DNA from: Arthrobacter sp. Leaf234
Lineage (GTDB): Bacteria > Actinomycetota > Actinomycetes > Actinomycetales > Micrococcaceae
Direction: 5' to 3'
Assembly (NCBI RefSeq): GCF_001422665.1
Contig: NZ_LMLU01000001.1
Location: forward strand, 1,235,583 to 1,299,582
Length of the DNA: 64,000 nucleotides
Positions 561 to 26,583 of this stretch are shown in pieces. The notes under the pieces are model-generated. The model made no database searches. It saw only the letters and a list, made by a program, of their open reading frames with translations, and was not told where the DNA came from. Every line of letters begins with the position of its first letter. The first letter of the stretch is position 1. Position numbers and translations under genes: made by a program.

Positions 561-1700
561 CTAGAGGTTGCCGGTCGCGATCATCAGCATGCGGCGCAAG
601 GGCTCGGCCGCACCCCACAGCAGCTGGTCACCGACGGTGAACGCACTGATGTAGTCCGGGCCCATCTCGAGCTTGCGGATACGCCCCACGGGGACGGTCA
701 GCGACCCGGTGGCGGCGACCGGCGTCAGGGACGCCAGCGTGTCCGTCTTCGTGTTCGGGATGACGCGGACCCAGTCGTTGTCCGCCGCGATGATCGCCTC
801 GATCTCACCGACGGGCAGGTCCTCGGTCAGCTTCAGGGTCAGGGCCTGCGAGTGCGAGCGCATGGCGCCGACCCTGACGCACAGTCCGTCGAAGGGGATG
901 CGCGCGTCGGTGCCGAGGATCTTGTTGGTCTCCGCGCCCGCTTTCCATTCCTCGCGGGACACGCCGTTGCCGAGGTCGCTGTCGATCCACGGGATGACGG
1001 AGCCGGCCAGCGGCACACCGAACTGGGAGGCCTCCAGGCTCGGGTGGCGCTGCTTCGCGAGGATGGCCCGGTCGATGTCCAGGATGGCCGACGCGGGATC
1101 GTCGAGGTTCATCGCCACGGTGCCGTGGAGGTCGCCGAACTGCGTGAGGAGTTCGCGCATGTGCCGGGCGCCGCCGCCCGAGGCCGCCTGGTAGGTCATG
1201 GACGTGCCCCACTCCACGAGACCGTTGCGGAAGAGCCCGCCGAGGCCCATCAGCATGCAGGACACGGTGCAGTTGCCGCCGATGAAGTCGCGGACGCCGC
1301 CCGCGAGGCCCGCGTCGATCGCGGACCGGTTGACCGGGTCGAGGACGATCACGCTGTCCTGATCCATGCGCAGGGTGGAGGCGGCGTCCAGCCACAGCCC
1401 GGACCAGCCCGCGTCGCGCAGCTTCGGGTACACCTCGGAGGTGTAGTCGCCACCCTGCGCCGTCACGATGATGGGGAGCGTGGCGAGGGTCTCGACGTCG
1501 TAGGCGTCCTGCAGGGGGTCCGCGCCGTCGGCGAAGGACGGCGCCGCGCCGCCCGCGGCCGACGTCGAGAAGAACACGGGGTTGATGCGGGCGAAGTCGC
1601 CCTCGTCCTGGAGCCGCTGCATGAGGACCGAGCCGACCATGCCGCGCCAGCCGACGAATCCGACGGACGGCAGGGCGGCGCTCTCGGGTGCTGAAGTCAT
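561..1700 (-). CDS. asd: Aspartate-semialdehyde dehydrogenase, E. coli-type
   Basis: Predicted to reduce aspartyl-4-phosphate to aspartate-4-semialdehyde with NADPH, the branch point to lysine, diaminopimelate, threonine and methionine; cytosolic. The 379-residue product starts with a Rossmann motif ([18 protein letters not shown]), has the catalytic cysteine in GGNCTVS at about residues 141-147, and the strongly conserved [18 protein letters not shown] stretch. These match the E. coli/Vibrio type of Asd; as I recall, the enzyme usual in actinobacteria is of the other (mycobacterial) type. No aspartokinase gene adjoins it, so it may be a second copy. The start is ATG 1700; a -10-like TAAACT lies exactly six bases before it, suggesting a leaderless mRNA. 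Confidence 0.93.
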
Positions 1701-1706
1701 ACGCCC

Positions 1707-1712
1707 AGTTTA
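1707..1712 (-). promoter_or_regulatory. -10 box for asd, leaderless
   Basis: On the minus strand TAAACT is followed by six bases (GGGCGT) and then the ATG of asd. With normal -10 to +1 spacing transcription would begin at the A of the start codon. No convincing -35 was seen. Confidence 0.45.
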
Positions 1713-1753
1713 GGCGGGAGGGGGAGTCCGGCCCGCTTTGTGACCGGCCCGGC

Positions 1754-2317
1754 TCAGTCCTGCCTCGTCCAGAGACTGATCCGGTACCGCGGACCCCTGG
1801 AGGACTCCAGCCAGCCCGTCTCGGGCGTCAACGCGGTGAGCGACCAGTCCGGACCGAGGGCCGGCGCCAGGGTGTCACCCTCCGCGGCATCCTCGACCAC
1901 CGTGACCAGGGCGGCGTGGGCGTGGGCCATACCGTCGGCGTACACGCGCCCGCCGCCGATGATCCAGACCTCGTCCGCTCCCGGGGCAGCCGCAGCCGCT
2001 GCCAGCGCGGCGTCCAGCGACGGGACGACGACGGCGCCGGGCAGATCGGTGACGGAGGTCGAGATGACGATGTTGGTGCGGTCCGGCAGGGGCCGGAAGC
2101 GCTCGGGGAACGATTCCCAGGTGCGGCGGCCCATGATCACCGGGTGCCCCGTGGTGGTCGCACGGAAGTGCGCGAGGTCTTCGGGGACGTGCCAGGGGAT
2201 GCCGCCGTCCTTCCCGATCACCCCGTTCTCCGTCTGCGCCCAGATCATGCCGATCACGGGCCTGGCCCGGACCGCGTCGGAGACCGTCACGGCCCGGGGC
2301 GGGCTGTCCTGGCTCAT
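1754..2317 (-). CDS. folA: Dihydrofolate reductase
   Basis: Reduces dihydrofolate to tetrahydrofolate with NADPH, regenerating the cofactor oxidised by thymidylate synthase. The product is 187 residues with an N-terminal extension of about 20; the core shows [30 protein letters not shown] (split here: [14 protein letters not shown] then [16 protein letters not shown]), the nucleotide motif [10 protein letters not shown], and [11 protein letters not shown]. The Glu of VPEDL is the usual acidic active-site residue. ATG 2317 overlaps the thyA stop by four bases (ATGA), so the pair is almost certainly translationally coupled. A much longer open frame on this strand continues upstream to 5608, but it runs antisense to thyA's neighbour pls and is not coding. 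Confidence 0.95.
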
Positions 2318-3141
2318 ACCGCGACCGGCGCCTTGATGGTGGGGTGGTGCCGGTAGTCGAGCACGGCGAAGTCCTCCAGCTGGTAGTCGAAGATGCCGGC
2401 CGGCTTCCGGGTGAGCTCGACGCGCGGGTACGGGTACGGGTCGCGGGACAGCTGCTCCGCGACCTGCTCCACGTGGTTGTCGTAGACGTGCACGTCCCCG
2501 CCCGTCCAGATGAACTCGCCGGGCTCGAAGCCCGTCTGCTGGGCGACCATCAGGGTCAGCAGGGCGTAGGACGCGATGTTGAAGGGCACGCCGAGGAAGG
2601 TGTCCGCGGAGCGCTGGTACAGCTGGCAGGAGAGCTTGCCGGGAGTGCCGTCCTGGCCGGGTGTCACGTAGAACTGGAAGAACACGTGGCAGGGCGGCAG
2701 GGCCATGTCCTTGATCTCGGAGACGTTCCAGGCCGAGACGAGGTGGCGGCGGGAATCGGGGTTGGTCCGCAGGGCCTCGACGACCTGCGCGATCTGGTCG
2801 ATGTGCCCGCCGTCGGGCGTGGGCCACGAGCGCCACTGGACGCCGTACACGGGGCCGAGCTCGCCGTCGTCGTCCGCCCACTCGTTCCAGATGGAGACGC
2901 CGCGTTCCTGGAGCCAGCGCACGTTCGAGTCGCCGCGGAGGAACCACAGCAGTTCGAGCGCCACCGACTTGAAGTGCACGCGCTTGGTGGTGATCAGCGG
3001 GAAGGACTCGGCGAGGTCGAAACGCAGCTGGCGGCCGAAGACACTGCGGGTCCCGGTGCCCGTCCGGTCGCTCTTCGCCGCGCCGTTCGCCATGACGTCG
3101 CGCAGCAGGTCCTCGTACGGGGTGGGGATGGGGGAGCTCAC
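2314..3141 (-). CDS. thyA: Thymidylate synthase
   Basis: Methylates dUMP to dTMP with methylene-tetrahydrofolate, yielding dihydrofolate for the overlapping folA product. The 275-residue length is standard for ThyA. Visible motifs are the phosphate-binding [12 protein letters not shown] near residue 25, FLRGDSN, the catalytic cysteine in [11 protein letters not shown], the [17 protein letters not shown] loop and the C-terminal IKAPVAV. The start is GTG at 3141, with a TAGACT -10 box exactly six bases before it, so the mRNA is probably leaderless. The promoter region is shared with pls, transcribed in the opposite direction. Confidence 0.96.
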
Positions 3142-3147
3142 CCGGCA

Positions 3148-3153
3148 AGTCTA
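3148..3153 (-). promoter_or_regulatory. -10 box for thyA, leaderless
   Basis: Minus-strand TAGACT followed by six bases (TGCCGG) and then the GTG of thyA. The divergent pls -10 box of identical sequence starts 18 bp away at 3172, so the two promoters overlap. Confidence 0.5.
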
Positions 3154-3171
3154 GAGCGGATGAGGCGCCGG

Positions 3172-3177
3172 TAGACT
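3172..3177 (+). promoter_or_regulatory. -10 box for pls
   Basis: GTAGACT, identical to the -10-like element seen before secE, rpoB, rpsL and tuf in this window. It would give an untranslated leader of about 55 nt before the pls GTG. No good -35 hexamer is visible. Confidence 0.4.
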
Positions 3178-3238
3178 TCCGGGGCCGGGGGAGAGCGCCG
3201 GTCATCTGCCGTTCACCTTGCACCGGAAGACTCCAGCC

Positions 3239-6200
3239 GTGACCATCCCCCCGCCCGAGGCAGCCCCCACCGTCGATCCCGCCGTCGATCCCGCCGTCGA
3301 TCCCGCAGTCGATCCCGCCGTCGATCCCGCCGTCGACCCCGCTGTCCGGCAGGCGCAGTTCGCCGCCGCCGGACGCGCGCCGGAGCCCCGGACGCTGCTG
3401 GGCATCCTCCACGCGACCGCCGCGGCACACCCCAGCGCCTCCGCGCTCGACGACGGCACCTCGGCCCTCAGCTACGCGGAGCTGGTTGCTGCCGCGCAGG
3501 CGTTCGCCGGCACCCTCCGGCGGGCGGGGGTCGGCCGCGGGGACTCCGTCGGCGTCCGCCTGCCCTCGGGTACCAGCGAGCTGTACATCGCGATCCTCGG
3601 CGTCCTCGCGGCGGGCGCGGCCTACGTCCCCGTGGACGCCGACGATCCCGACGAGCGTGCGCTCGTCGTCTTCGCCGAGTCGCGGGCCGCCGTCGTCGTC
3701 GGGCCGGGCCTGGCGCTCACCCCCGCGGGACGCCCCCGGGGGATCGACGGAGGACCGACGCCCGACGACGACGCCTGGATCATCTTCACCTCCGGCTCCA
3801 CCGGCACGCCCAAGGGGGTCGCCGTCACGCACCGCTCGGCCGCGGCCTTCGTCGACGCCGAGGCCCGCCTGTTCCTGCAGTGCGAGCCGATCGGCCCCGC
3901 CGACCGCGTGCTGGCGGGCCTGTCCGTCGCGTTCGACGCCTCGTGCGAGGAGATGTGGCTGGCCTGGCGCCACGGTGCGTGCCTCGTCCCGGCGCCGCGT
4001 GCCCTCGTGCGGACCGGCGTCGACCTCGGTCCGTGGCTGATCGCCCGCGGCATCACGGTCGTGTCCACGGTGCCGACCCTCGCAGCCCTGTGGCCCGAGG
4101 ATGCGCTCGAGAACGTCCGGCTGCTCATCTTCGGCGGCGAAGCCTGCCCGCCGGACCTCGCGCAGCGCCTCGCCGTGCACGACCGCGAGGTGTGGAACAC
4201 CTACGGGCCCACCGAGGCGACCGTCGTCGCCTGCGCGGCGCGCCTCGGCGGTGGTGGACCCGTCCGCATCGGTCTGCCGCTGGACGGCTGGGACCTCGCC
4301 GTCGTCGACGGATCGGGCGTGCCCGTGCCCGAGGGCGCCGTCGGCGAACTGATCATCGGGGGAGTGGGCCTCGCCCGCTACCTCGATCCTGCGAAGGACG
4401 CCGAGAAGTACGCGCCGCTGCCGACCCTCGGCTGGGACCGCGCCTACCGCTCCGGGGATCTCGTGAAGCTGGAGGCGGCGGGGCTGGTGTTCGTCGGCCG
4501 CGCGGACGACCAGGTGAAGCTCGGCGGGCGGCGCGTCGAGCTCGGGGAGGTCGACGCCGCGCTGCAGGCCCTCCCGGGCATCGCCGGGGCGGCCGCCGCC
4601 GTGCGGACGACGCCGTCCGGCAACCAGCTGCTCGTCGGGTACCTCGTCGCTGCCTCCGCCGCCCCCGACGTCGCGGTGCTCCGCGCCCTGCTGGCCGAGC
4701 AGCTCCCCGCGGCCCTCGTGCCGCTCCTGACCGTGACCGACGCGCTGCCCACCAAGACCAGCGGCAAGGTGGACCGGGACGCGCTGCCCTGGCCGCTTCC
4801 CGGCAGGGAGGAGGCCGGGGGCGCGGCGGCGCTCGAGGCCCTCGACCCTCAGGTCCAGTGGATCGCCGACCAGTGGGCCGCCGTGCTCGGCACCGTCCCG
4901 GTCGACGGGGACGCCGACTTCTTCCTCCACGGTGGCGGCTCCCTCGCCGCGGCCCGGCTCGTCTCCCTGATCCGCGCCCGCTACCCGGTCGTCACCGTCG
5001 CGGACGTCTACGCGCACCCGCGGCTGGGCGCGCTCGCCGCGCTCGCGGCGAGCACGGGCGACGGCGTCGAGCAGCAGGCCGCCCCCGTCCGGACCGTGCG
5101 GCGCACCAGCTGGAGGGCGCAGGCCTTCCAGACCCTCCTGGGGATCCCGCTGCAGTTCCTCGCGGGCATGCGCTGGCTGACGTACGCCATGATCGCGACG
5201 AACGTCCTGGCCGGCCTCGGCGTCCTCACCGCGGCGCCCACGGTGTCGTGGCCCTGGGTCGCCGCGTCCTGGCTGGTCTTCGTGAGCCCCTTCGGCCGCA
5301 TGGCCCTCTCCGTCGCCGCCGCCCGTGTCCTGCTGCGGGGCGTCCGGCCCGGTGTGTATCCGCGGTCCGGCAGGGTGCACCTGCGGCTCTGGCTCGCCGA
5401 GCAGATCTCGGACAGTGTCGGCGCCGTGGGTCTGGCGAGTGCCCCGTGGGTCCCCGTGTACGCCAGGGCCCTCGGGGCGAGGATCGGGCCCGACGTCGAC
5501 CTCCACTCCGTCCCGCCCGTCACGGGGTTCCTGACGCTCGGTGCAGGCGCCTCCGTGGAGCCGGAGGTGGACCTCTCCGGCTGGTGGATCGACGGCGACC
5601 GCGTCCACATCGGCGCCATCGACGTGGGCGCCGGTGCCGTCGTCGGTGCCCGCAGCACCCTGATGCCGGGCGCGCGGGTCGGCGCCCGGGCGGAGGTGGC
5701 ACCCGGATCCGCGGTGCAGGGCGCGGTGAAGGCCGGACAGCTCTTCTCCGGGTCGCCGGCGGTGCGGGAGGGCCGCGCCCGGCAGGACCGGCCCGACGCC
5801 CCGCCGCCCCGCTCGCCGTTCCGTGCGCGCATGGCGTTCCTAGCCTTCGCCGCAGCATCCGGTGCGCTGGCGCTGATCCCGTTCGTCGCGGCCGTCGTGG
5901 CGTCCCTGCCCGTGGTGGCGGCCCTCCGGGGTGCGCCGTCGCTCGCCGCCGCCTGGCCCACGCTCGTCGGTCCGGTGGTCCTCGCCGCCGTCCTGTGGCT
6001 GCTGGTCAACGCGCTCCTCGTCGTCGTCACCGTGCGGCTGCTCGGCCTCGGACTGCAGGAGGGCCACTACCCGGCACGCAGCCGCACCGGGTGGCGGATC
6101 TGGGCCACCGAACGCACGCTCGACATGGCGCGCGACCTCCTCTTCCCCCTCTACGCGAGCCTCGTCACGCCGGTGTGGCTCCGCCTGCTCGGGGCGCGGG

Positions 6201-7234
6201 TCGGACGGAACGTCGAGGCATCCACAGTGCTCCTGATCCCGGCGATGACGACCATCGGTGAAGGGGCGTTCCTCGCGGACGACACCAGGGTGGCGTCCTA
6301 CGAGCTCGGTGGCGGCCACCTGCGCATCGCTCCGGCGAAGATCGGCCGGCGCGCGTTCCTCGGCAACTCCGGCATGACGTCGGCCGGCCGGCGCGTCCCG
6401 AAGAACTCGCTCGTCGCCGTGCTCTCGGCAACCCCCGCGAAGGCGAAGGCCGGGAGCTCCTGGCTGGGCAGTCCGCCGTCGCGCCTGCGCCGCCTCGCGG
6501 TCACGGGAGACAGCAGCCGCACCTTCCGGCCGCCTCCCCGGCTCAAGGCCGCCCGGGCGTTCTGGGAGCTCTGCCGGATCGTGCCGATCATCCTGACGGT
6601 CATGATCGCCGCCGCCTCCCTGGTCATCATCGACGCGCTCGCCCTGTGGGCCGGGCACGCGGTCGCAGCGCTGCTCAGCGGCCTGGTGTTCATGGCCCTC
6701 GGAGCCGTCGCCGCGGGAAGCGCCGTCCTCGCGAAGTGGCTGCTCGTAGGACGCATCCGGGCGGGGGAGCACCCGCTCTGGAGCTCGTTCATCTGGCGCA
6801 ACGAGGTGGTGGACACCTTCATCGAGAGCGTGAGCGCCCCGTGGTTCGCCCGCGCCGCCAGCGGGACACCCGCCCTGGTGTGGTGGCTGCGTGCGCTGGG
6901 GTCGAAGATCGGGCACGGCGTCTGGTGCGAGAGCTACTGGCTCCCCGAGGCGGACCTCGTGACGCTGGGCGCCGGGTCCACCGTCAACCGTGGCTGCGTG
7001 GTGCAGACGCACCTCTTCCATGACAGGATCATGAGCATGGACACCGTGGAGCTCGCTGCAGGCGCGACCCTCGGCCCGCACAGCGTGATCCTGCCCGCGG
7101 CGGACATCGGCTCCGGCGCCACCGTGGGGCCCGCCTCGCTCGTCATGCGGGGAGAGACCGTTCCCGCCGGCAGCTCCTGGATGGGGAACCCGGTCAGCTC
7201 GTGGACCGGGCCCGGACCCGTGCGTGGGCAGTAG
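3239..7234 (+). CDS. pls: Pls/PosA-family nonribosomal peptide synthetase (poly-lysine synthetase-like)
   Basis: A single-module membrane NRPS, 1331 residues from GTG 3239, the length of known epsilon-poly-L-lysine synthetase. Order: six VDPA repeats; adenylation domain about 45-530 (FTSGSTGTPKG near 180, YGPTEATV, RSGD, TKTSGKVDR); carrier domain with the phosphopantetheine serine in LHGGGSLAA near 568; then alternating hydrophobic helices and three soluble parts with hexapeptide-repeat (left-handed beta-helix) character. This A-T-membrane-C1/C2/C3 plan is that of Pls enzymes, which join amino acids into homopolymers without a thioesterase. Pocket residues read by alignment to GrsA give D-A-E-S-I-G-T-V-V-K, close to the lysine code as I remember it, so L-lysine is the best guess. 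The SD-like GGAAGA favours GTG 3239 over an in-frame TTG at 3218. It overlaps the peptidase gene and faces a phosphopantetheinyl transferase. Confidence 0.88.
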   Translation: MTIPPPEAAPTVDPAVDPAVDPAVDPAVDPAVDPAVRQAQFAAAGRAPEPRTLLGILHATAAAHPSASALDDGTSALSYAELVAAAQAFAGTLRRAGVGRGDSVGVRLPSGTSELYIAILGVLAAGAAYVPVDADDPDERALVVFAESRAAVVVGPGLALTPAGRPRGIDGGPTPDDDAWIIFTSGSTGTPKGVAVTHRSAAAFVDAEARLFLQCEPIGPADRVLAGLSVAFDASCEEMWLAWRHGACLVPAPRALVRTGVDLGPWLIARGITVVSTVPTLAALWPEDALENVRLLIFGGEACPPDLAQRLAVHDREVWNTYGPTEATVVACAARLGGGGPVRIGLPLDGWDLAVVDGSGVPVPEGAVGELIIGGVGLARYLDPAKDAEKYAPLPTLGWDRAYRSGDLVKLEAAGLVFVGRADDQVKLGGRRVELGEVDAALQALPGIAGAAAAVRTTPSGNQLLVGYLVAASAAPDVAVLRALLAEQLPAALVPLLTVTDALPTKTSGKVDRDALPWPLPGREEAGGAAALEALDPQVQWIADQWAAVLGTVPVDGDADFFLHGGGSLAAARLVSLIRARYPVVTVADVYAHPRLGALAALAASTGDGVEQQAAPVRTVRRTSWRAQAFQTLLGIPLQFLAGMRWLTYAMIATNVLAGLGVLTAAPTVSWPWVAASWLVFVSPFGRMALSVAAARVLLRGVRPGVYPRSGRVHLRLWLAEQISDSVGAVGLASAPWVPVYARALGARIGPDVDLHSVPPVTGFLTLGAGASVEPEVDLSGWWIDGDRVHIGAIDVGAGAVVGARSTLMPGARVGARAEVAPGSAVQGAVKAGQLFSGSPAVREGRARQDRPDAPPPRSPFRARMAFLAFAAASGALALIPFVAAVVASLPVVAALRGAPSLAAAWPTLVGPVVLAAVLWLLVNALLVVVTVRLLGLGLQEGHYPARSRTGWRIWATERTLDMARDLLFPLYASLVTPVWLRLLGARVGRNVEASTVLLIPAMTTIGEGAFLADDTRVASYELGGGHLRIAPAKIGRRAFLGNSGMTSAGRRVPKNSLVAVLSATPAKAKAGSSWLGSPPSRLRRLAVTGDSSRTFRPPPRLKAARAFWELCRIVPIILTVMIAAASLVIIDALALWAGHAVAALLSGLVFMALGAVAAGSAVLAKWLLVGRIRAGEHPLWSSFIWRNEVVDTFIESVSAPWFARAASGTPALVWWLRALGSKIGHGVWCESYWLPEADLVTLGAGSTVNRGCVVQTHLFHDRIMSMDTVELAAGATLGPHSVILPAADIGSGATVGPASLVMRGETVPAGSSWMGNPVSSWTGPGPVRGQ
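3272..3343 (+). repeat. 12-bp tandem repeat, six units, in pls
   Basis: Six head-to-tail copies of GTCGATCCCGCC (third ends in A, sixth has GACCCCGCT) encode VDPA six times at the extreme N-terminus of the synthetase. In-frame unit length means slippage would change copy number without breaking the gene. Confidence 0.95.
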
Positions 7235-8594
7235 CTCCGAGGGCTCCGCGCCCGATCCCTACACGCCGGGCAACGGCAGCACCGCCTACCGCGTGAAGCA
7301 CTACGACCTCACCCTGGACTACAAGCTCGCCAGCAACCGCCTCTCCGGCCGTGCGGTCCTCACCATGGCCGCCCACCGCGAACTGCACCAGCTCGAGCTC
7401 GACCTGAGCGGGCTGCGGACCACGAAGGTCACCTCCGACACGGTGCGCGTGCGCTCGTTCAAGGAGCGGGCGGGCAAACTGGTCGTCGCCTTCCGCGACC
7501 CCGTGCCCGACGACGCCGAGCTACGGCTCGACATCCGGTACGAGGGGAACCCGGCACCCATCAGCGGTACCTGGGGGGACGTCGGCTGGGAGGAGCTCAC
7601 GGACGGCGTCCTGGTGGCCGGGCAGCCGACCGGTGCGCCGTCGTGGTTCCCCTGCAACGACCACCCCTCCGGCAAGGCGGCCTACCGGTTCACCGTGACC
7701 ACCGACGCCGGCTACCGCGCGGTGTGCAACGGCGTCCTCGTCGCGCGCATCGCGAAGTCCAGCCGCACCACGTGGGTGTACGAGCAGTCGGAACCGATGC
7801 CCACCTACCTCGCGACGGTGCAGATCGGCCGGTACGACCTCGTGGCGCTGAACGACCCGGCGCAGCCCGCCGTCGGCCTTCCCCGCCATGCAGGCGGCGG
7901 ACGCGGGACGGGGCGTCCCGTTCCCCAGTACGCGGCCGTGCCGGCGGCCCTCGCGCACGCGGCGAAGGCCGCCCTCGGCCGGCACCACGAGATGATGACC
8001 GCCTTCGAGGAGCGCTTCGGGCCCTACCCGTTCCCCCAGTACCTCCTGGTGGTGGCGGACGACGACCTGGAGATCCCCCTCGAGGCGCAGACGCTGTCCA
8101 TCATCGGGCGCAACCACCTCGACGAGGGCTGGGAGGCGCAACGGCTGATCGCGCACGAGCTCGCGCACCAGTGGTTCGGCAACGCGGTCACCACCGCCCG
8201 CTGGCAGGACATCTGGCTGCACGAGGGTTTCGCCTGCTACGCGGAATGGCTCTGGTCCGAGGCGAGCGGGGCGACGACGGCGGAGGCGCACGCGCGCTCG
8301 ACGCACCAGCATCTCGCCCGTGAACCCCAGGACCTCGTGATCGGCGACCCCGGCGCCGCGGACATGTTCGACGACCGCGTGTACAAGCGCGGTGCACTCG
8401 CGCTGCATGCGCTCCGGACCGCCGTGGGCGACGACGCCTTCTTCGGCCTCCTCCATTCGTGGACGGCCGGGTACCGCTTCGGTTCGGTCACCACGCCGGA
8501 CTTCCTCGCCTTCGTGACCCGCACCCTGCCCGGGACCGATGCCGAGGTGCTCCTCGGTCCGTGGCTGCACGCCGCGGCGCTTCCCGCCCTGTAG
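7224..8594 (+). CDS. M1-family zinc metallopeptidase
   Basis: A 456-residue zinc aminopeptidase-like protein. The zinc site is complete: HELAH, 18 residues, then Glu in LHEGF, with the catalytic Tyr in VYKRGALAL. The usual GAMEN exopeptidase motif is replaced by PLEAQT, which keeps the glutamate but not its neighbours. No signal peptide or membrane segment is seen, so it is predicted cytosolic. The GTG start at 7224 lies inside the end of pls (11-base overlap), so the two are translationally coupled. Streptomyces poly-lysine producers pair their synthetase with a polymer-degrading peptidase; a role in cutting the polymer or protecting the producer is inference from position. Confidence 0.9.
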   Translation: MGSSSEGSAPDPYTPGNGSTAYRVKHYDLTLDYKLASNRLSGRAVLTMAAHRELHQLELDLSGLRTTKVTSDTVRVRSFKERAGKLVVAFRDPVPDDAELRLDIRYEGNPAPISGTWGDVGWEELTDGVLVAGQPTGAPSWFPCNDHPSGKAAYRFTVTTDAGYRAVCNGVLVARIAKSSRTTWVYEQSEPMPTYLATVQIGRYDLVALNDPAQPAVGLPRHAGGGRGTGRPVPQYAAVPAALAHAAKAALGRHHEMMTAFEERFGPYPFPQYLLVVADDDLEIPLEAQTLSIIGRNHLDEGWEAQRLIAHELAHQWFGNAVTTARWQDIWLHEGFACYAEWLWSEASGATTAEAHARSTHQHLAREPQDLVIGDPGAADMFDDRVYKRGALALHALRTAVGDDAFFGLLHSWTAGYRFGSVTTPDFLAFVTRTLPGTDAEVLLGPWLHAAALPAL

Positions 8595-8644
8595 CGCGGC
8601 TCGTCCTTCAACGGTCCACGGCAGCCCGGGCCCACCGCCCTGCT

Positions 8645-8670
8645 CGACGCGCGCGGCCTGCCGCGCGTCG
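8645..8670. terminator. Hairpin between convergent genes
   Basis: Nine-base perfect stem CGACGCGCG / CGCGCGTCG around an eight-base loop, between the ends of the M1 peptidase and the convergent phosphopantetheinyl transferase. No U-tract. Confidence 0.45.
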
Positions 8671-8691
8671 GCCGAGGGCCACGGCCCGGGA

Positions 8692-9558
8692 CTAGGGCCC
8701 GACGGCGACGGCGGCCGCCAGTCCTTGCCTGGTCAGCAGCACTCCGTCGATGCGGTGCAGGTCCCTGACCCGGGCATCGTCGAGGACGTCGAGCTCGTGC
8801 GGCTCGAGGGGTCGTGTACCGCGCCCCGGGCCGCTGTGCGCCTCGGCGCCTGCACGCGCACCCGTCGGGGGACCGGCGCCGGCACCCGGGTCCGTGCCGC
8901 CGCCGAAGCCGGTCCCGAGAGCCTTGGCCACGGCCTCCTTGCGCGCCCAGAGCCGTGCCCGCGTCGCCGCGCGTCCGTCCGGTGGCGTCCCGTGCACGGC
9001 CCTGCGCTCGCGGACCGTCAGGGCCACGTCGTCGAAGCCGTCGAAGTCCACCTCGGTCACGGCGGTGAGGTCCACGCCGAGGCTCTGCGGCTCGTCCGCC
9101 CGGTCGCCGATCGCGGTGAGGCCGCCGACCAGGACGAACCCCGCGGCGCGGGAGAGGCTGAGGGACAGGGGCGTCCGTACGCCGTCCACGGTGTAGCCGG
9201 GCCTCCCGTGGTCGGACCCGCCGGCGGGCGAGCATCTCGGGCAGGAGAAGTCCGAGCGGAGGCGTCCGGGGCCGACGTCGAGCAGCTCCGCGGCGAGCTC
9301 CCGGAGGGCCGCACGGCCGGCCACGAACTGCGCTGCCCGAACCGGATCGACGAAACGACCGGCGCGCTCACGTTCGAGGGCATCGAGACCGTGGACCTCG
9401 TCGAAGCCGTCGAGCCGGGCAGGGGCCCGGCGGCCCGATTCGCCCGACGCATGGGGCGCAGGGTGCAGGCCGGGGGTGGGGCCGGTCCGGAGGAGCCGCA
9501 CGACGACGCCGGACGGCTGCGCCGGGGAGGCGGTGCCGGGCAGCGAGGGGGACGTCAT
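8692..9558 (-). CDS. 4'-phosphopantetheinyl transferase, Sfp type
   Basis: Transfers the phosphopantetheine arm of coenzyme A to a carrier-protein serine. The 288-residue product carries the family's two signatures: SLGVDLTAV followed by an acidic stretch (Mg binding) and ARLWARKEAVAKALG. SLSRAAGFVLVGG precedes the first motif as in Sfp-like enzymes. A Gly/Ala/Pro-rich, low-complexity insertion follows the WARKEA motif. It is convergent with the Pls synthetase and peptidase, and the Pls carrier domain needs exactly this activation, so it is the likely partner. ATG 9558 is chosen although an in-frame GTG lies one codon upstream and the open frame extends to 10098; the upstream part is low-complexity and overlaps another gene. 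Confidence 0.88.
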   Translation of the reverse strand: MTSPSLPGTASPAQPSGVVVRLLRTGPTPGLHPAPHASGESGRRAPARLDGFDEVHGLDALERERAGRFVDPVRAAQFVAGRAALRELAAELLDVGPGRLRSDFSCPRCSPAGGSDHGRPGYTVDGVRTPLSLSLSRAAGFVLVGGLTAIGDRADEPQSLGVDLTAVTEVDFDGFDDVALTVRERRAVHGTPPDGRAATRARLWARKEAVAKALGTGFGGGTDPGAGAGPPTGARAGAEAHSGPGRGTRPLEPHELDVLDDARVRDLHRIDGVLLTRQGLAAAVAVGP

Positions 9559-9707
9559 CACCCCATGATCGTCGATGGATGCTCCGCCGAGGTGGTCCTG
9601 CGGACGGGTGCTGGGCGGAGGGTCCCTGCGCAGGGGTGCGACGGCCGGTCCGTGCCGGTGGACCCCGAGTGGCGGACGCCTGGTGAGGGACCCCGGGCGA
9701 CGGACCC

Positions 9708-9983
9708 CTAGAGACGGACGTCGAGGAGTTCGCTGCAGACGTCGTCGCGCAGGATGAACGGGCGCGGTCGGTCGGCGTCGGCGCGCCGGCCGTACACGTA
9801 GTAGCCGCGTCCCTCCCCGGGGCCGCCGGCTGCGCGGTCGATCGCGTGCACGAGCCGTGGTGTCAGCGGCCCTGCCGGCCCGATGCTCCGGAGTTCCTCG
9901 ATCTCGTGCGGTGCGAGTCCCCGCACAACGCCTCTCACATCGGCCATCCCTGCGGTTCCCGTCCGTCGGAGCGTGCTGTGCAT
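9708..9983 (-). CDS. Small hypothetical protein
   Basis: A 91-residue open frame, or 79 residues if translation starts at the second ATG (9947). The sequence VVRGLAPHEIEELRSIG, then a helix with RLVHAIDRA, then a GRGYYVYGRRADADRPRPF strand-like part, looks like a real small soluble protein rather than shadow translation. There is no membrane segment and I do not recognise the family. It stands alone on the minus strand between the phosphopantetheinyl transferase and mutT1. GGAAG just before ATG 9983 supports the longer form weakly. Confidence 0.5.
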   Translation of the reverse strand: MHSTLRRTGTAGMADVRGVVRGLAPHEIEELRSIGPAGPLTPRLVHAIDRAAGGPGEGRGYYVYGRRADADRPRPFILRDDVCSELLDVRL

Positions 9984-10110
9984 GAGCTTCCGACCCTAGG
10001 GAAGGCTGATGAACCAGGCATGAACGGCGCGGGACCGGCGGATGATCCTCCGTGAACCGATCATCGTCGTGGCTGATCCGCACGGGTGCGCCCGGCACGA
10101 GTGCCGAGGT

Positions 10111-11079
10111 TCAGTCGTCGTACGCCCTGAACTGCTCCACCGAGACGATCCGTCCCTGGTTGGCGCTGCTGACCTGGCAGATCACGGCCTCGCCGGGCGC
10201 CAGGTAGGGGTCCTCGACCGGCAGGAGGGCCCGGAGGGTACCGGTCATGTGGGTGCCGAGCACCGAGAAGACCAGGGGCAGTACGGGCCGATGGGTGCAG
10301 ATCGCCACGGAGCGGCGCTTGTCGAACACCCGCTCGACGGCGGACCGCGCGCGCCCGGGCCTGCGGGCGGCGTCGTGCTCGGTCAGGGCATCCACGAGCT
10401 TCAGCTTCGCGCTGCGCTGGGTGACGTAGGGGGAGACGGTCTGGACGCACCGGACCCAGGGGCTGCTGACCACGCGCTCGGGATTCCAGGCCTGCAGCAG
10501 CCTGCCGACCGCGATCGCCTGGCGCCGGCCGGTGGCGGCGAGGGGACGCTCGCCCTCGGCACGGCTCCACGACGAGCGTGGTTTCGCCTTCGCGTGACGC
10601 ACGACGATCAGCGGCCAGGTCTGCAGGTCCTTCGCGCGGTGCGCGGCGACCAGCGCGTTGAGCGGCTCGACGTCGGACGGGTTGCTGAGCATCGTCCGGG
10701 CCCGCTCCGGGGCGACCCACTCGAAGCCGTCCACCTCCTTGCCGTCGGGCACGGGCGTGAGCCGCTCGGTCCTCGCTGCCCAGTAGTGCACCGTCTTCCC
10801 GCCCGATGTGACCGGATAGGTGATGGTCGCGAGCGGGATGCCGAGCTTGACGCTCACCCCCACCTCCTCGAACGTCTCGCGCACGGCGCACTCGGGCGTC
10901 GTCTCACCCGGATCGAGCTTCCCCTTGGGCCACGACCAGTCGCCGTAGCGCGGCCTGTGGATGATCAGGACCTCCAGGGATCCCTTCTCCACGCGCCAGC
11001 ACAGCGTGCCCGCAGCGATGACCGTGGCGCCACTGCCCGGTGCGGTCTGGGCGGTCGCGTCCTTCGTCGACGTCGCCAT
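10111..11079 (-). CDS. mutT1: Nudix hydrolase fused to a histidine phosphatase domain (MutT1-like)
   Basis: 322 residues, two domains. The N-terminal half has a complete Nudix box, GKLDPGETTPECAVRE followed by TFEEVGV; the C-terminal half begins with the phosphohistidine motif LIVVRHAKA and has a second His in CTHRPVL. This fusion matches mycobacterial MutT1, which hydrolyses 8-oxo-dGTP/GTP and diadenosine polyphosphates. In mycobacteria the gene also sits beside ppk1, as here. The start ATG 11079 overlaps the ppk1 stop (TGATG), so coupling is likely and the longer open frame to 11184 is not used. Confidence 0.9.
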   Translation of the reverse strand: MATSTKDATAQTAPGSGATVIAAGTLCWRVEKGSLEVLIIHRPRYGDWSWPKGKLDPGETTPECAVRETFEEVGVSVKLGIPLATITYPVTSGGKTVHYWAARTERLTPVPDGKEVDGFEWVAPERARTMLSNPSDVEPLNALVAAHRAKDLQTWPLIVVRHAKAKPRSSWSRAEGERPLAATGRRQAIAVGRLLQAWNPERVVSSPWVRCVQTVSPYVTQRSAKLKLVDALTEHDAARRPGRARSAVERVFDKRRSVAICTHRPVLPLVFSVLGTHMTGTLRALLPVEDPYLAPGEAVICQVSSANQGRIVSVEQFRAYDD

Positions 11080-13301
11080 CAGCGGCGCGACACCGCTCGC
11101 TGGCGCGCCCGGGAGGCGAGCAGCCACGACTGGATGTCCTCGAGCGGTGCGCCGCCGTCGTCCTTGTGGTGGCGGGTCCAGCAACCCGTCTCGTCGAGGT
11201 GCCAGCTGGAGACGGCCGGGTTCATGTAGCGGTCCATGAGGGTCATCAGGTAGGAGATGTCCTCCGGTGCGCTCAACTGGACGAGCGCCTCGACGCGACG
11301 GTCGAGGTTGCGGTGCATCATGTCCGCCGAGCCGATGAAGACGGCGGGCTCCCCGCCGTTGGCGAACGCGAAGACGCGGGAGTGCTCGAGGAACCGGCCG
11401 AGCACGGAGCGCACCGTCACGTTCTCGCTGAGTCCCGGGACGCCGGGGCGGACGGAGCAGATGCCGCGGACGATCACGTCGACCTGCACACCGGCCTGCG
11501 AGGCCCGGTAGAGCGAGTCGATGATGGCTTCGTCCACCATCGAGTTGACCTTGATGACCACCCGCGCGGCGAGACCGGCCTGCTTGTTGGCGATCTCCCG
11601 CTCGATGCGGTCGATCAGGCCCGAGCGGACCGAGCGCGGAGCGACGAGCAGGCGCTTGAACGTGGACTTCGGGGCGTACCCGGAGAGCTGGTTGAACAGC
11701 CTCGAGAGGTCCTGGCCCACCTGCTCGTTCGCCGTGAGGAGCCCGAGGTCCTCGTAGTACCGCGCCGTGCGGGGGTGGTAGTTGCCCGTGCCGATGTGGC
11801 AGTACCGGCGCAGCCCGTCGATCTCCTGCCGCACCACGAGGGAGAGCTTGCAGTGCGTCTTCAGGCCCACGATCCCGTACACCACGTGCACGCCCGCCTG
11901 CTCGAGCTTCCGGGCCCAGGAGATGTTCGCCTGCTCGTCGAAGCGCGCCTTGATCTCGACGAGCGCGAGGACCTGCTTGCCGGCCTCCGCCGCGTCGATC
12001 AGGGCGTCGACGATCGGGGAGTCACCCGAGGTGCGGTACAGCGTCTGCTTGATGGCCTGCACCTTGGGGTCGGCCGCGGCCTGCTCCAGGAACGCCTGCA
12101 CCGACGTCGAGAAGGAGTCGTAGGGGTGGTGCAGGAGGATGTCCCGGCGGCGCATGGCGGCGAAGACGTTCGCGGCCTTGGAGGTCTCGCTCTCGTTGAG
12201 GTGGCGGCTCGTGTGCGGGACGTGCTTCGGGTAGTGCAGGTCGCCGCGGTCGATCCCGGCGATGACGCTGAGTCCCCGGAGGTCCAGGGGGGCGGGGAGG
12301 TTGTACACCTCGTCCTCCTCGACGCCGAGCTCGCGCGACAGCAGGGCGCGGATGCTCGGATTGATGTCCGTGGTCACCTCGAGGCGCACCGGCGGACCGA
12401 AGCGGCGGCGGAGCAGCTCCTTCTCGAGGGCCTGCAGCAGGTTCTCGGCGTCGTCCTCCTCGACCTCGAGGTCCTCGTTGCGGGTCACGCGGAACAGGTG
12501 GTGCTCGAGCACCTCCATGCCGGGGAACAGCTGGTCGAGGTGGACGGCGATGACCTCCTCGAGCGGGATGAAGCGCGCGATCCGCCCGGCGACGTTCCCG
12601 GCACGCGGACCGTCCACGGACATGAGGCGCGGCAGCTGGTCCGGCACCTTGACGCGGGCGAAGAGCTCCTTCTCGCTGACCGGGTTGCGGACCACGACGG
12701 CGAGGTTGAGGGAGAGTCCGGAGATGTAGGGGAACGGGTGCGCGGGATCGACGGCGAGGGGCGTGAGGATCGGGAAGACCTTCTCCGCGAAGATCTTGTG
12801 CAGTTCCGCCCGCGCGGTTTCGTCGAGTTCCTGCCAGGTGGTGAGGTGGATCTGCTCCTCGGCGAGGGCCGGCCGGATGTGCTCGGCGAACACGGCCGCG
12901 TGGCGCTGCTGCAGCTGGTAGCCGTCCTGCATGATCTTCTCGAGCTGCTCGATGGGGCTGAGTCCCGCGGCCGAGGGGACGGCGAGACCGGTCGCGATGC
13001 GGCGCTTCAGCCCGGCGACACGGACCATGAAGAACTCGTCGAGGTTGGACGCGAAGATGGAGAGGAAGTTGACCCGCTCCAGCAGGAAGAGCTCGGGGTC
13101 CTCCGCGAGTTCGAGCACGCGGGCGTTGAAGTCGAGCCAGCTGATCTCACGGTCGAGGAAGCGGTCCGGCCGGATGTCGCCGGAGGGCAGGAGGCTCGGA
13201 GCGAACTCGGGGATGTCGATGCGGTCCTGCGTCGCCCGGGCCGGAGCCGTCTCGGACGAGCCGTAGAGCGAGGCACCCCGGGGTGTGGTCTTCGAATCCA
13301 T
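11079..13301 (-). CDS. ppk1: Polyphosphate kinase 1
   Basis: Reversibly makes inorganic polyphosphate from ATP. The 740-residue product has the PPK1 plan: N-terminal helical part ([20 protein letters not shown]), a central region with [18 protein letters not shown] and [16 protein letters not shown], the catalytic-histidine region [13 protein letters not shown], and [18 protein letters not shown]. The C-terminus carries [19 protein letters not shown]. It heads a two-gene unit with mutT1, which overlaps its stop codon. Polyphosphate and nucleotide clean-up are a recurring pairing in actinobacteria. Confidence 0.96.
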
Positions 13302-13331
13302 GGCGTCTCCTGCAGGTGGGCGGGCATCATC

Positions 13332-13363
13332 GCGTACCCCGCCCTGATCGGGCAGGGGTACGC
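13332..13363 (-). terminator. Hairpin after mshD
   Basis: Stem GCGTACCCC / GGGGTACGC extended by GCCC/GGGC with one bulged A, in the 75 bp between the mshD stop and the ppk1 start. No U-tract follows on the minus strand, so it may be a weak terminator or an mRNA end stabiliser. Confidence 0.45.
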
Positions 13364-13376
13364 CTCGAAAATAACC

Positions 13377-14348
13377 TTACAAGGTGGCCTGCGCCGCGGT
13401 TGGCGCGTACATGACGTCCACGTCCCACCGGGTGAAACCGAGGGTGCGGTACAGCGCGACGGCGGCGGTGTTGTCCGCGTCGACGTAGAGCATGATTGCC
13501 TGCAGGCCCTTGCCGTGCAGGTGGTCGATCCCCGCGATGGTCAGCGCCTTGCCGAGGCCCGTGCCCTGCGCCTCGGGCGCCACCCCGACGACGTAGACCT
13601 CGCCCATGGCCGGATGCCCGCCGGTGCCCGGGTGGACCTTCGTCCAGTGGAAGCCGAGCAGGGTGTCGTCCGCGGACCGCACGGCGAGCAGGAAGCCCTC
13701 GGCGTCGAACCAGTCCTCGTCCAGGCGTGCCTCGAGGTCCGCGCGCGTCGTCGCGCCCTGTTCCGGGTGGTGCGCGAAGGCGGCGGCGTTGACGGCGAGC
13801 CAGGCCTCCTCGTCCCGACCGCGGACGAAGGGACGCAGCACGACGCCGTCGGGCAGGCGCAGGGCGGGGACCGACTGCTCGACGGCGGCGCGCGTGAGCC
13901 GCATGCGCCAGAGTTCCCGCACGGGTGCGTACCCGAAGCGCGCGGCGAGATCGGCGGCCGCCGAATGGTTGCCGTGGGACCAGCCCCGGAGATCGGTGAT
14001 CCCTTCGGCGAGGACGGCCTCGATCAACGCCGTTCCTGCGCCCTCCCCCCGGCAGTCCGGCCCGACGACGAGTTCCAGGACGGAGCCGTCGCCCGACCCG
14101 CGGGTGATCACGGCGACACCGGCCAGATCGCTGTCCGGCTGGCCCGCGGAGCGCGCGGTGATGACGAGCAGTCGCTCGCCGGCGTCCTCGGCCCGCAGCG
14201 TGACGAGGGTCTGCTCCGAGAGGGGAGGGTTGCCGTCGGCCTCGGAGGCTGCCGCGGCCAGGCGGCGGATCTCCTCGAGGGTCGCGGCCGCCGGCGCGCC
14301 GGCGATCCTGTCGACGGACCAGGTGGGTGTGTGCTCGACGGCGGTCAT
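13377..14348 (-). CDS. mshD: Mycothiol synthase
   Basis: Acetylates Cys-GlcN-inositol with acetyl-CoA, the last step of mycothiol, the main thiol of actinobacteria. The 323 residues hold two GNAT domains, the MshD layout: the first with ELVVGPDCRGEGAGTALIEAV, the second with VYVVGVAPEAQGTGLGKAL and the MLYVDADNTAAVALYRTLGF end motif. HHPEQGATTRADLEARLDE between them is also typical of MshD. In Mycobacterium the gene neighbours glnR, as it does here. A TAGGCT box six bases before ATG 14348 predicts a leaderless mRNA. Confidence 0.94.
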   Translation of the reverse strand: MTAVEHTPTWSVDRIAGAPAAATLEEIRRLAAAASEADGNPPLSEQTLVTLRAEDAGERLLVITARSAGQPDSDLAGVAVITRGSGDGSVLELVVGPDCRGEGAGTALIEAVLAEGITDLRGWSHGNHSAAADLAARFGYAPVRELWRMRLTRAAVEQSVPALRLPDGVVLRPFVRGRDEEAWLAVNAAAFAHHPEQGATTRADLEARLDEDWFDAEGFLLAVRSADDTLLGFHWTKVHPGTGGHPAMGEVYVVGVAPEAQGTGLGKALTIAGIDHLHGKGLQAIMLYVDADNTAAVALYRTLGFTRWDVDVMYAPTAAQATL

Positions 14349-24673: not shown

Positions 24674-26583
24674 GGGGTGTCTCCTGTGGGGGTGGGTGCG
24701 CTGGTCCCGGGTGCCGGGCTGTCCGACGGCGACGCCGTCACGATGGTGACGTCGCTGAGGGCGCCCCTCACGTCCAGCACGATGGCGGGACCGGACGCGT
24801 CCGGGTTGAGATCGCGGTTGTCCAGCTGCAGGACGCCGCCGTCGCTCCGGAACTCCGGTGCCGCCGCATCGTCGACGGCGGTCCCGCGGGCTTCCGCGGC
24901 ACCGAGTGCCATGCGGCTCCGGACCTCCACGGGGATGTCGCCCGGGACGATCACGGTGACCTCGCTGACGAGCGCGTTGACCGGCACGACGACGTCCCGC
25001 GTGGGGCGACGGACGTCCGAGAGGTCGATCGTGCTCTGGGCCGCCAGGATGCTGTAGCCGTCGGCCGCGCCGGCAAGTGCTGCGGGCGCCGTCCGGCTCT
25101 CCTGCGCGACGATCCACGTTCCACCCATCACCGAGAAGGACGCGATCAGCCCGCCGAGGAGGGTCAGGGTGGCGGCCACTCCGACAAGACCCGAGGTGCG
25201 CCCCCGCAGCCCGAGGACGATCACGCCGAGGGCGAGCACGACGGCGGCTGCGGCGCAGGCCACGACCGCTGCATCGGTGACGGCGAGGGCGCCGAGGTAG
25301 TCGGCGGCCAGCACGGCAGCCGCGACGACGAGGGCGCCGCCGATGAGCAGCGCCGTGGCGGGCCCCGACGGGCGGCTCGGACGGATGCGGACGGGCCGTG
25401 GTGCGCGGAGGGCGACAGGACCTGTCCCCGGCCCCGCTGCAGAGGGTGCGGGGAAGGGTGCAGAGGACCCGGGACCCGTCCAGCCCGGCCCCGCCGTGTC
25501 GGCGGCGTAGGGGAAGGGGCCGGGAAGGGAGCGGGTCAGGGTGTCCGGACGATAGGGCAGGGGGACGGTGCGGTCGTCGTGGTCTTCCGTGACCGGGTCA
25601 TCGCCCTCCGTGGCGACCGGTGCTGCTCCGCCCGACCGGATCAGGGATCCGGTTCCTGTCCCCGGTGCCGCGCCCGGAGCGGTGGAGAAGGACGCGGCGC
25701 CGGACGGCGTACTTCCGGACGGCCCGGTATCGGTCGTGTCCGGGGCGGCCCCGCTCGCCGCCGCGGATTCCGGTCCGTCCGGATGTGGTGCGATGGGCAC
25801 GGGTCCGGTGGGCGGTGGTCCGGCAGGCGCGGAACCGGAGGCCGCGGAGTTCGACGGTGCCGGTCCGAAGGGCTGCGACGGCCCGGACCCGGGTGCACCG
25901 AAGCCTGGCCCGCCGAAGCCCGGCCCGCCCGCTCCGGGTCCGCCGAAGCCTGGCCCCCCGAAGCCTGGTCCGCCCGCTCCGGGTCCGCCGGAGCCTGGTC
26001 CGCCGAAGCCCGGTTCACCGGAGCCCGGCCCGCCCGCTCCGGGACCTCCGGAAGCGGGCCCGGCCCCGGGCCCCTGGAAGCCGGGCCCCCCGGGCCGGCC
26101 CTTGCCACTGTTCCGATTGACGATCCAGTAGACGAAGAGGACCACCGCGCCGATCCAGAAGAGCGTCCAGAGGAGGCCGCCCGTCCCGCCGTCGCCGAAC
26201 AGCGGGATGTTGGGACGCAGCAGGCCGATCGCCACGAGGGCCGCCGCGCCGGTGAGGCCGGACGTCCACGACCCCCGGCCGGCCTGCTCCACGTGGATGC
26301 GCCCGTCCGGTTCGGGCAGCAGTGCCCAGGCCAGGCCGTACAGCAGCACGCCGATCCCGCCGAAGACCGAGAGGATCAGGATGAGCCCCCGGACGAGGGC
26401 CTGGTCGAGGCCCGTACGCCGGGCGATCCCCCCGGAGACGCCCCCGACCCATCGATCGGGTGCCCGGGTGATGTCGAGTCCACGGATCCAGCGAAAGAAC
26501 GAAGAGGAGGCGGGAGGTCCCGCGGTCGGTGCGGCCGGTTCGTGCTGCCAGGACGGCCCGCCTGGGGTGGGTGCTGAGGTCAT
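24670..26583 (-). CDS. PspC-domain membrane protein with LiaF-like C-terminus
   Basis: 637 residues. An N-terminal PspC domain (about 35-90: RWVGGVSGGIARRTG, GGIGVLLYGLAWALLP) is followed by membrane helices, a long Gly/Pro-rich repeat region (about 165-240), a Pro/Ala/Ser-rich linker, more membrane helices, and a C-terminal beta-rich domain (IDLSDVRRPTRDVVVPVN, VTVIVPGDIPVEVRSR, IVLDVRGALSDVTIV) resembling the extracytoplasmic-response domain of LiaF. In Firmicutes LiaF restrains the LiaSR two-component system; here the kinase and regulator lie divergently next door. Start ATG 26583 is chosen over the upstream in-frame start at 26619. A repressor or sensor role is inference. Confidence 0.82.
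   Translation of the reverse strand: MTSAPTPGGPSWQHEPAAPTAGPPASSSFFRWIRGLDITRAPDRWVGGVSGGIARRTGLDQALVRGLILILSVFGGIGVLLYGLAWALLPEPDGRIHVEQAGRGSWTSGLTGAAALVAIGLLRPNIPLFGDGGTGGLLWTLFWIGAVVLFVYWIVNRNSGKGRPGGPGFQGPGAGPASGGPGAGGPGSGEPGFGGPGSGGPGAGGPGFGGPGFGGPGAGGPGFGGPGFGAPGSGPSQPFGPAPSNSAASGSAPAGPPPTGPVPIAPHPDGPESAAASGAAPDTTDTGPSGSTPSGAASFSTAPGAAPGTGTGSLIRSGGAAPVATEGDDPVTEDHDDRTVPLPYRPDTLTRSLPGPFPYAADTAGPGWTGPGSSAPFPAPSAAGPGTGPVALRAPRPVRIRPSRPSGPATALLIGGALVVAAAVLAADYLGALAVTDAAVVACAAAAVVLALGVIVLGLRGRTSGLVGVAATLTLLGGLIASFSVMGGTWIVAQESRTAPAALAGAADGYSILAAQSTIDLSDVRRPTRDVVVPVNALVSEVTVIVPGDIPVEVRSRMALGAAEARGTAVDDAAAPEFRSDGGVLQLDNRDLNPDASGPAIVLDVRGALSDVTIVTASPSDSPAPGTSAPTPTGDTP
25895..26075 (-). repeat. 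Gly/Pro-coding degenerate repeat
   Basis: Degenerate 15-bp units encode GGPG-type pentapeptides (GFGGP, GAGGP, GSGGP) about a dozen times inside the PspC/LiaF-like gene. The two strands show complementary Pro-rich shadow frames. Confidence 0.85.

Follow-up and report, generated by a model that had tools for sequence, protein, structure and literature searches.

A 64,000-nucleotide stretch of DNA from Arthrobacter sp. Leaf234 (here called the window; the host genome comprises 3.52 Mb in 12 contigs) very probably holds a self-contained cassette for the synthesis of epsilon-poly-L-lysine (epsilon-PL). Its first gene, pls (3239..7234, + strand), encodes a single-module nonribosomal peptide synthetase of the Pls/PosA family, which is predicted to be an epsilon-poly-L-lysine synthetase. 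The second gene (7224..8594, + strand) shares its first 11 bp with the end of pls and encodes an M1 zinc metallopeptidase that is PldII-like by position, and a convergent third gene, encoding an Sfp-type 4'-phosphopantetheinyl transferase (PPTase; 8692..9558, - strand), ends 97 bp past the stop codon of the M1 gene. All three reading frames are open. The original prediction, which had been made from the sequence alone, had described precisely this combination, i.e. a Pls-type synthetase with three hexapeptide-repeat domains, an overlapping M1 peptidase with a complete zinc site and a convergent Sfp-type transferase in an Arthrobacter-like host, and our analysis bears out each of these elements. 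Its expectation that such a locus would be notable as a discovery did not hold, however, because Pls homologues in Arthrobacter, the pls–peptidase operon and the action of the peptidase on the polymer have all been published (PMC8117764; excerpts of PMC4361855 and PMC9223678). The locus is a further case of a known system and adds no new principle.

With the GTG at 3239 taken as the start codon (a TTG at 3218 is an alternative) and a TAG stop at 7232-7234, pls encodes a protein of 1331 amino acids, of which residues 630-1319 match the NCBIfam hidden Markov model for the Pls/PosA family (TIGR02353) with 697.6 bits, the cut-off being 423.1. Pfam detects three elements, namely an adenylation (A) domain (PF00501, 206.8 bits), a thiolation (T) domain (PF00550, 37.7 bits) and just one hexapeptide-repeat segment (PF00132, 33.9 bits); AMP-binding, PP-binding and Hexapep being the only families found at E <= 0.001, there is no canonical condensation or thioesterase domain at this threshold. 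The T domain together with the membrane and condensation part (residues 532-1331; 4832..7231, + strand) was modelled with AlphaFold2 from a 26-sequence alignment (mean predicted local distance difference test score (pLDDT) 83.2, predicted TM-score 0.86), and the model features three strand-rich blocks (approx. 217-318, 455-528 and 690-785 in model numbering), each of which is preceded by a pair of long helices. Searching the PDB with this model by Foldseek yielded 541 matches at E <= 10, including 96 at E <= 0.001, and the 50 matches listed are hexapeptide-type acyltransferases or designed proteins, with the designs T308 and T310 presumably being built on the hexapeptide-type fold. At the level of the predicted structure, the C-terminal half of Pls thus comprises three acetyltransferase-like domains in tandem (C1-C3). 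By hydropathy (>1.5), five helices can be discerned, at residues 647-669 (weak), 863-904, 900-941 and 1105-1171, the last segment having a length that fits two. C1-C3 domains and six transmembrane helices have been described for Pls (PMC8117764).

Among named organisms, Arthrobacter bussei KR32 has the closest relative of the synthetase (L037; 96% identity in the best segment). In a tree of 49 rows, calculated with a quick method from approximately half of the 80 loci introduced below, six fetched genes and the window, and with long branches flagged, these two proteins pair (support 100) within a set of 20 rows from Micrococcaceae and Brevibacterium (support 100). A Streptomyces homologue (L104), which is 62.6% identical to the window Pls, is located outside this set and inside the group of genes of the window's kind (type 1), with a divergent second type being placed far off. 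One locus titled Rhodococcus sp. (L065) is tagged Cyanobacteriota in the tree, which looks like a labelling slip. Near its N-terminus, the window Pls contains a VDPA-type repeat encoded by 6.8 copies of a 12-bp tandem repeat (3266-3346), across which the A. bussei match has nine codons fewer.

An important question is which amino acid this synthetase would polymerize. The ten specificity residues of the A domain (residues 233, 234, 237, 276, 297, 299, 321, 329, 330 and 510; codons within 3935..4768, + strand) were placed by motif and not from an alignment to GrsA, and read DAESIGTVVK, exactly as originally stated. Among PDB sequences, the A domain is best matched by 7wew, the A domain of an epsilon-poly-L-lysine synthase (686 bits, the next sequence reaching 353), which we take to be the Streptomyces albulus enzyme; this alignment identifies the same residues, and 10 of 10 agree when read from the printed alignment. 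Conservation of the pocket and of the neighbouring genes was assessed in the 80 top-ranking members of a set of 591 confirmed relatives from a contig scan, so that these counts speak for near relatives. DAESIGTVVK is present in all 79 readable relatives, including Streptomyces L104; the 80th (L115) is a 4.4-kb fragment with one of the ten positions readable. Being identical to 7wew and to 79 of 79 relatives, the pocket does not show the two differences from the lysine code that had initially been assumed, and that code was presumably another enzyme's. By its residues the pocket of the window Pls is thus lysine-type, and the pocket argument is stronger than first stated.

Could the synthetase nevertheless produce a different cationic homopolymer, i.e. 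poly-diaminobutyrate, poly-diaminopropionate, poly-ornithine or epsilon-poly-beta-lysine? The domain plan is common to synthetases of a number of these polymers (PMC8117764), and a single NCBIfam model spans the family. However, position 2 of the pocket is Ala in the window Pls, and Ala at this position is linked to lysine, whereas Met is found in PosA and Phe in the synthetases of poly-diaminopropionate and poly-diaminobutyrate (PDAP and PDAB; excerpt of PMC10522769). Moreover, the genus possesses a separate type of Pls-family gene (type 2; L127 in genome G007, L128 in G028 and L130 in G004), which is only 28-30% identical to the window Pls and exhibits the pocket DFECLSVVTK. An aspartate kinase gene and an Sfp-type gene are its neighbours in G007 and G028, accompanied in G028 by a class-III aminotransferase gene, and a homologue of the window M1 gene was found at neither locus (tblastn, 14 kb). 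G004 carries both types of pls, with no Sfp match within the 12 kb examined around its type-2 gene. The type-2 protein of L127 matches the same NCBIfam family as the window Pls. On account of their pocket and the aspartate kinase (in G028 also the aminotransferase), these loci of G007 and G028 resemble the published clusters for poly-diaminobutyrate synthetases, which carry dat and ask (PMC8117764), and by this analogy may be of the poly-diaminobutyrate type. In contrast, no aspartate kinase or aminotransferase is present among the nine window proteins scanned (561-14348). On the basis of pocket and neighbours, we reject a different polycation as the product and regard it as highly improbable.

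Within the genus, two further variations of pls were observed. Genome G029 has a second Pls gene beside its usual cassette (L129:7899-11711), which is 52% identical to that in the window, shows the pocket DAESIGTVIK and has an Sfp-type gene at a distance of approximately 3.3 kb. In G012 (C1:2714746-2718660), pls is split over three consecutive frames with overlaps of a few bases, reflecting either recent decay or sequencing errors.

The product of the M1 gene matches the Pfam domains PF01433 and PF17900 and has a complete zinc site (HEXXH-18-E, residues 311-334), the ligands of which are invariant in 28 aligned sequences, as are Tyr387 and Glu287, the latter at the presumed place of the Glu in GXMEN. 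GXMEN is the exopeptidase motif of M1 aminopeptidases; no G.MEN occurs in the protein, which has PLEAQ at the presumed place. The structural model (mean pLDDT 91.3) finds its best PDB fold in the Deinococcus radiodurans M1 enzyme (6ifg, 6a8z), which has the same two-domain M1 architecture (TM-score to the model, 0.86; 169.7 bits by sequence); identity over the structural alignment is approximately 32%, and the window enzyme differs in that its substrate is presumed to be epsilon-PL. An M1 homologue is located downstream of pls and on the same strand in 79 of the 80 relatives, the fragment L115 being too short and without an M1 match, and the homologue adjoining pls in Streptomyces sp. L104 shares 49% identity with the window M1. 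Given this conserved gene order, a chance neighbourhood of unrelated genes was rejected. In five loci from Williamsia and Tsukamurella (L096, L099, L101, L103 and L110), approximately 0.6-2.2 kb lie between pls and the M1 gene.

Across the genus, close M1 homologues (E <= 1e-100) coincide exactly with type-1 pls, both being present in the same 16 of 35 genomes, and since such matches are confined to these genomes, a role as a housekeeping aminopeptidase was rejected as well. Weaker M1 matches, no more than 40% identical, exist in three genomes without pls (G006, G027 and G033), and G009, G015 and G019 carry such matches as additional copies. In S. albulus, pls and pldII form a single operon and overlap by 4 bp, compared with 11 bp in the window (excerpt of PMC4361855). 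PldII breaks down epsilon-PL (PMC8117764), and its repression results in chains of more than 40 residues, with the authors deeming PldII necessary for self-protection (excerpt of PMC9223678).

The convergent gene encodes a protein that matches PF01648 (38.7 bits, cut-off 25) and features the motifs GVDL and WARKEAVAK (WxxKEAxxK); GVD and WxxKE are motifs of Sfp-type PPTases. Scores below the cut-offs of TIGR00556 (21.9 versus 45.35 bits) and of the HetI model NF042922 (31.5 versus 370) count against this assignment. Just one other gene in the genome matches PF01648 (E <= 0.01), and this gene, a 142-amino-acid open frame, is taken to be AcpS. In the loci of the 80 relatives, Sfp homologues were detected in 27 cases by tblastn (E <= 1e-5) and in 32 by an iterated profile, and in 25 the gene is convergent and no more than 300 bp away from the stop of the M1 gene; judging from the record titles, we take the 32 to be Micrococcales. 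Across the genus, an Sfp homologue (E <= 1e-5) is present in 17 of the 18 genomes with a Pls-family gene of either type (E <= 1e-80) and in none of the 17 without one (Fisher p = 4.2e-9 for 35 related genomes in hand-made lists, three of which, G009, G016 and G026, are less than 90% complete). The remaining Pls holder, G013, has a weak Sfp profile match (E 4e-6, 14-kb search), which is again convergent and beside its M1 gene. Thus, within the genus the occurrence of the transferase follows that of Pls-family genes, including the divergent type-2 genes. Our literature search, which included the available excerpts of PMC4361855 and PMC4668381, found no published statement of this link, and in PMC8117764 a phosphopantetheinyl transferase goes unmentioned (0 occurrences).

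How, then, may the components work together? The Sfp-type enzyme would attach the phosphopantetheine arm to the T domain of Pls, and the A domain would adenylate L-lysine and load the arm with it. The hexapeptide-type domains C1-C3, placed on membrane helices, would then link lysines via the side-chain amine, i.e. by isopeptide bonds, with the chain ending up outside the cell if the analogy with the Streptomyces enzyme applies. The M1 peptidase, the gene of which overlaps pls and is probably translationally coupled to it, may trim or degrade the polymer, perhaps for self-protection and for setting chain length.

Several observations weigh against this picture of a self-contained cassette. The model of Pls holds three helix pairs; of the six membrane helices that would be expected, hydropathy backs five, with the second helix of the first pair staying below the threshold. 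The M1 protein has no hydrophobic N-terminus in a simple hydropathy scan, and PldII is said to sit outside the membrane (excerpt of PMC9223678). In Streptomyces, moreover, inactivation of Pld plus PldII is reported to have left epsilon-PL production unchanged, which counts against a large role of the peptidase (excerpt of PMC8506220). As regards the transferase, its link to Pls is correlative and comes from genomes that are related to one another, G005 has its transferase match and its pls on different contigs, and 48 of the 80 relatives show no Sfp homologue in the stretch examined (up to approximately 8 kb per side, some being cut by contig ends). In these 48 cases a PPTase encoded elsewhere can therefore serve Pls, and the Sfp-type gene in the window might be a general PPTase gene that is at this locus by chance. 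Yet the genome offers just a single other PF01648 gene, and within the genus the Sfp homologue is restricted to genomes with Pls-family genes and is also found near the type-2 genes of G007 and G028; we therefore consider a general PPTase decidedly unlikely.

A final point on this side of the balance concerns function. The Corynebacterium variabile homologue, which is 51% identical to Pls, yielded epsilon-PL in Streptomyces coelicolor, a result in favour of the proposed product; native C. variabile, in which the protein went undetected, and C. glutamicum expressing its gene produced no detectable epsilon-PL (PMC8117764). Such loci may therefore be silent, and the cassette in the window could likewise be silent or have lost its function, leaving the strain without polymer. 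A consensus scan of 3100-10100 detected neither a sigma-70-like promoter nor a terminator, but such a scan misses some kinds of actinobacterial promoters. Against decay speak the three open frames as well as the intact pocket, zinc ligands and transferase motifs, and a cassette that does not deliver its polymer seems to us rather unlikely, if the most serious of the alternatives.

Beyond its three genes, the cassette has borders in this lineage, as delineated by a comparison of thyA–mutT1 intervals. On the left, this border is thyA (2314..3141, - strand), which by profile match encodes thymidylate synthase and is outside the pathway, and on the right it is a gene for a MutT1-like Nudix/histidine phosphatase (10111..11184, - strand; profile matches). 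Both could be placed in 34 genomes of the genus (G026 gave no mutT1 match), with one placement per genome, i.e. leaving out second thyA matches in G014 and G022 and a second mutT1 match in G014. In 10 genomes pls is located between them (interval 6.6-10.9 kb), in 22 it is not (0.03-5.9 kb, four of these genomes carrying pls elsewhere) and two were left unjudged. Eight of the 22 cassette-free sites, from seven genomes without type-1 pls plus G013 with its copy elsewhere, were read for remnants of pls, the M1 gene or the Sfp-type gene, and none were found (tblastn and blastn, E <= 1e-3). From the intervals with and without pls and the absence of remnants at these eight sites, it seems that the cassette is gained or lost as a whole. 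The cassette-free thyA–mutT1 gap of G033 (L119:1116-3232), as read by eye, holds a long hydrophobic protein and a seeming GntR-type regulator. Further to the left in the window, approximately 1.5 kb from pls and on the opposite strand, there is asd (561-1700, - strand) for aspartate-semialdehyde dehydrogenase, an enzyme of the aspartate/lysine pathway, and at 25889-26088 imperfect tandem repeats occur with units of 15, 27, 30 and 45 bp.

Among known systems, that of S. albulus is alike in the A-T-membrane-C1/C2/C3 plan, in the pocket as seen in 7wew and in an overlapping downstream peptidase gene; the proteins were compared via the A domain only, and what the window adds is the convergent Sfp-type gene and the Arthrobacter-like host. 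The coryneform Pls homologues are of the same kind and have the same peptidase neighbour, as demonstrated for C. variabile (PMC8117764); no difference of substance was found, making the window another instance, and the presence of Pls in Arthrobacter is repeated elsewhere (excerpt of PMC8506220). PosA, the delta-poly-L-ornithine synthetase of Acinetobacter, belongs to the same family, and its C-terminal part has been modelled as three beta-helices of left-handed sense that lie over pairs of helices, which our Pls model fits; it differs by its code DMEHNGTVSK and by its single-gene operon (excerpt of PMC10522769).

The one point for which the literature search gave no published counterpart is the tracking of Pls-family genes by the transferase within the genus. 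Streptomyces is used to make epsilon-PL, which has been approved as a food preservative (PMC8117764), and a compact Arthrobacter cassette, seemingly with its own activating transferase, could be convenient for its expression or production. For the biology of Arthrobacter and its kin, a bolder and evenly balanced view is that polycation synthesis is a plug-in cassette, composed of a Pls-family synthetase, an overlapping peptidase and a dedicated Sfp-type transferase, which comes and goes as a unit at certain sites of the chromosome. With one transferase family serving both the lysine and the diaminobutyrate-like types, this transferase would then be the host's licence to run any such enzyme.

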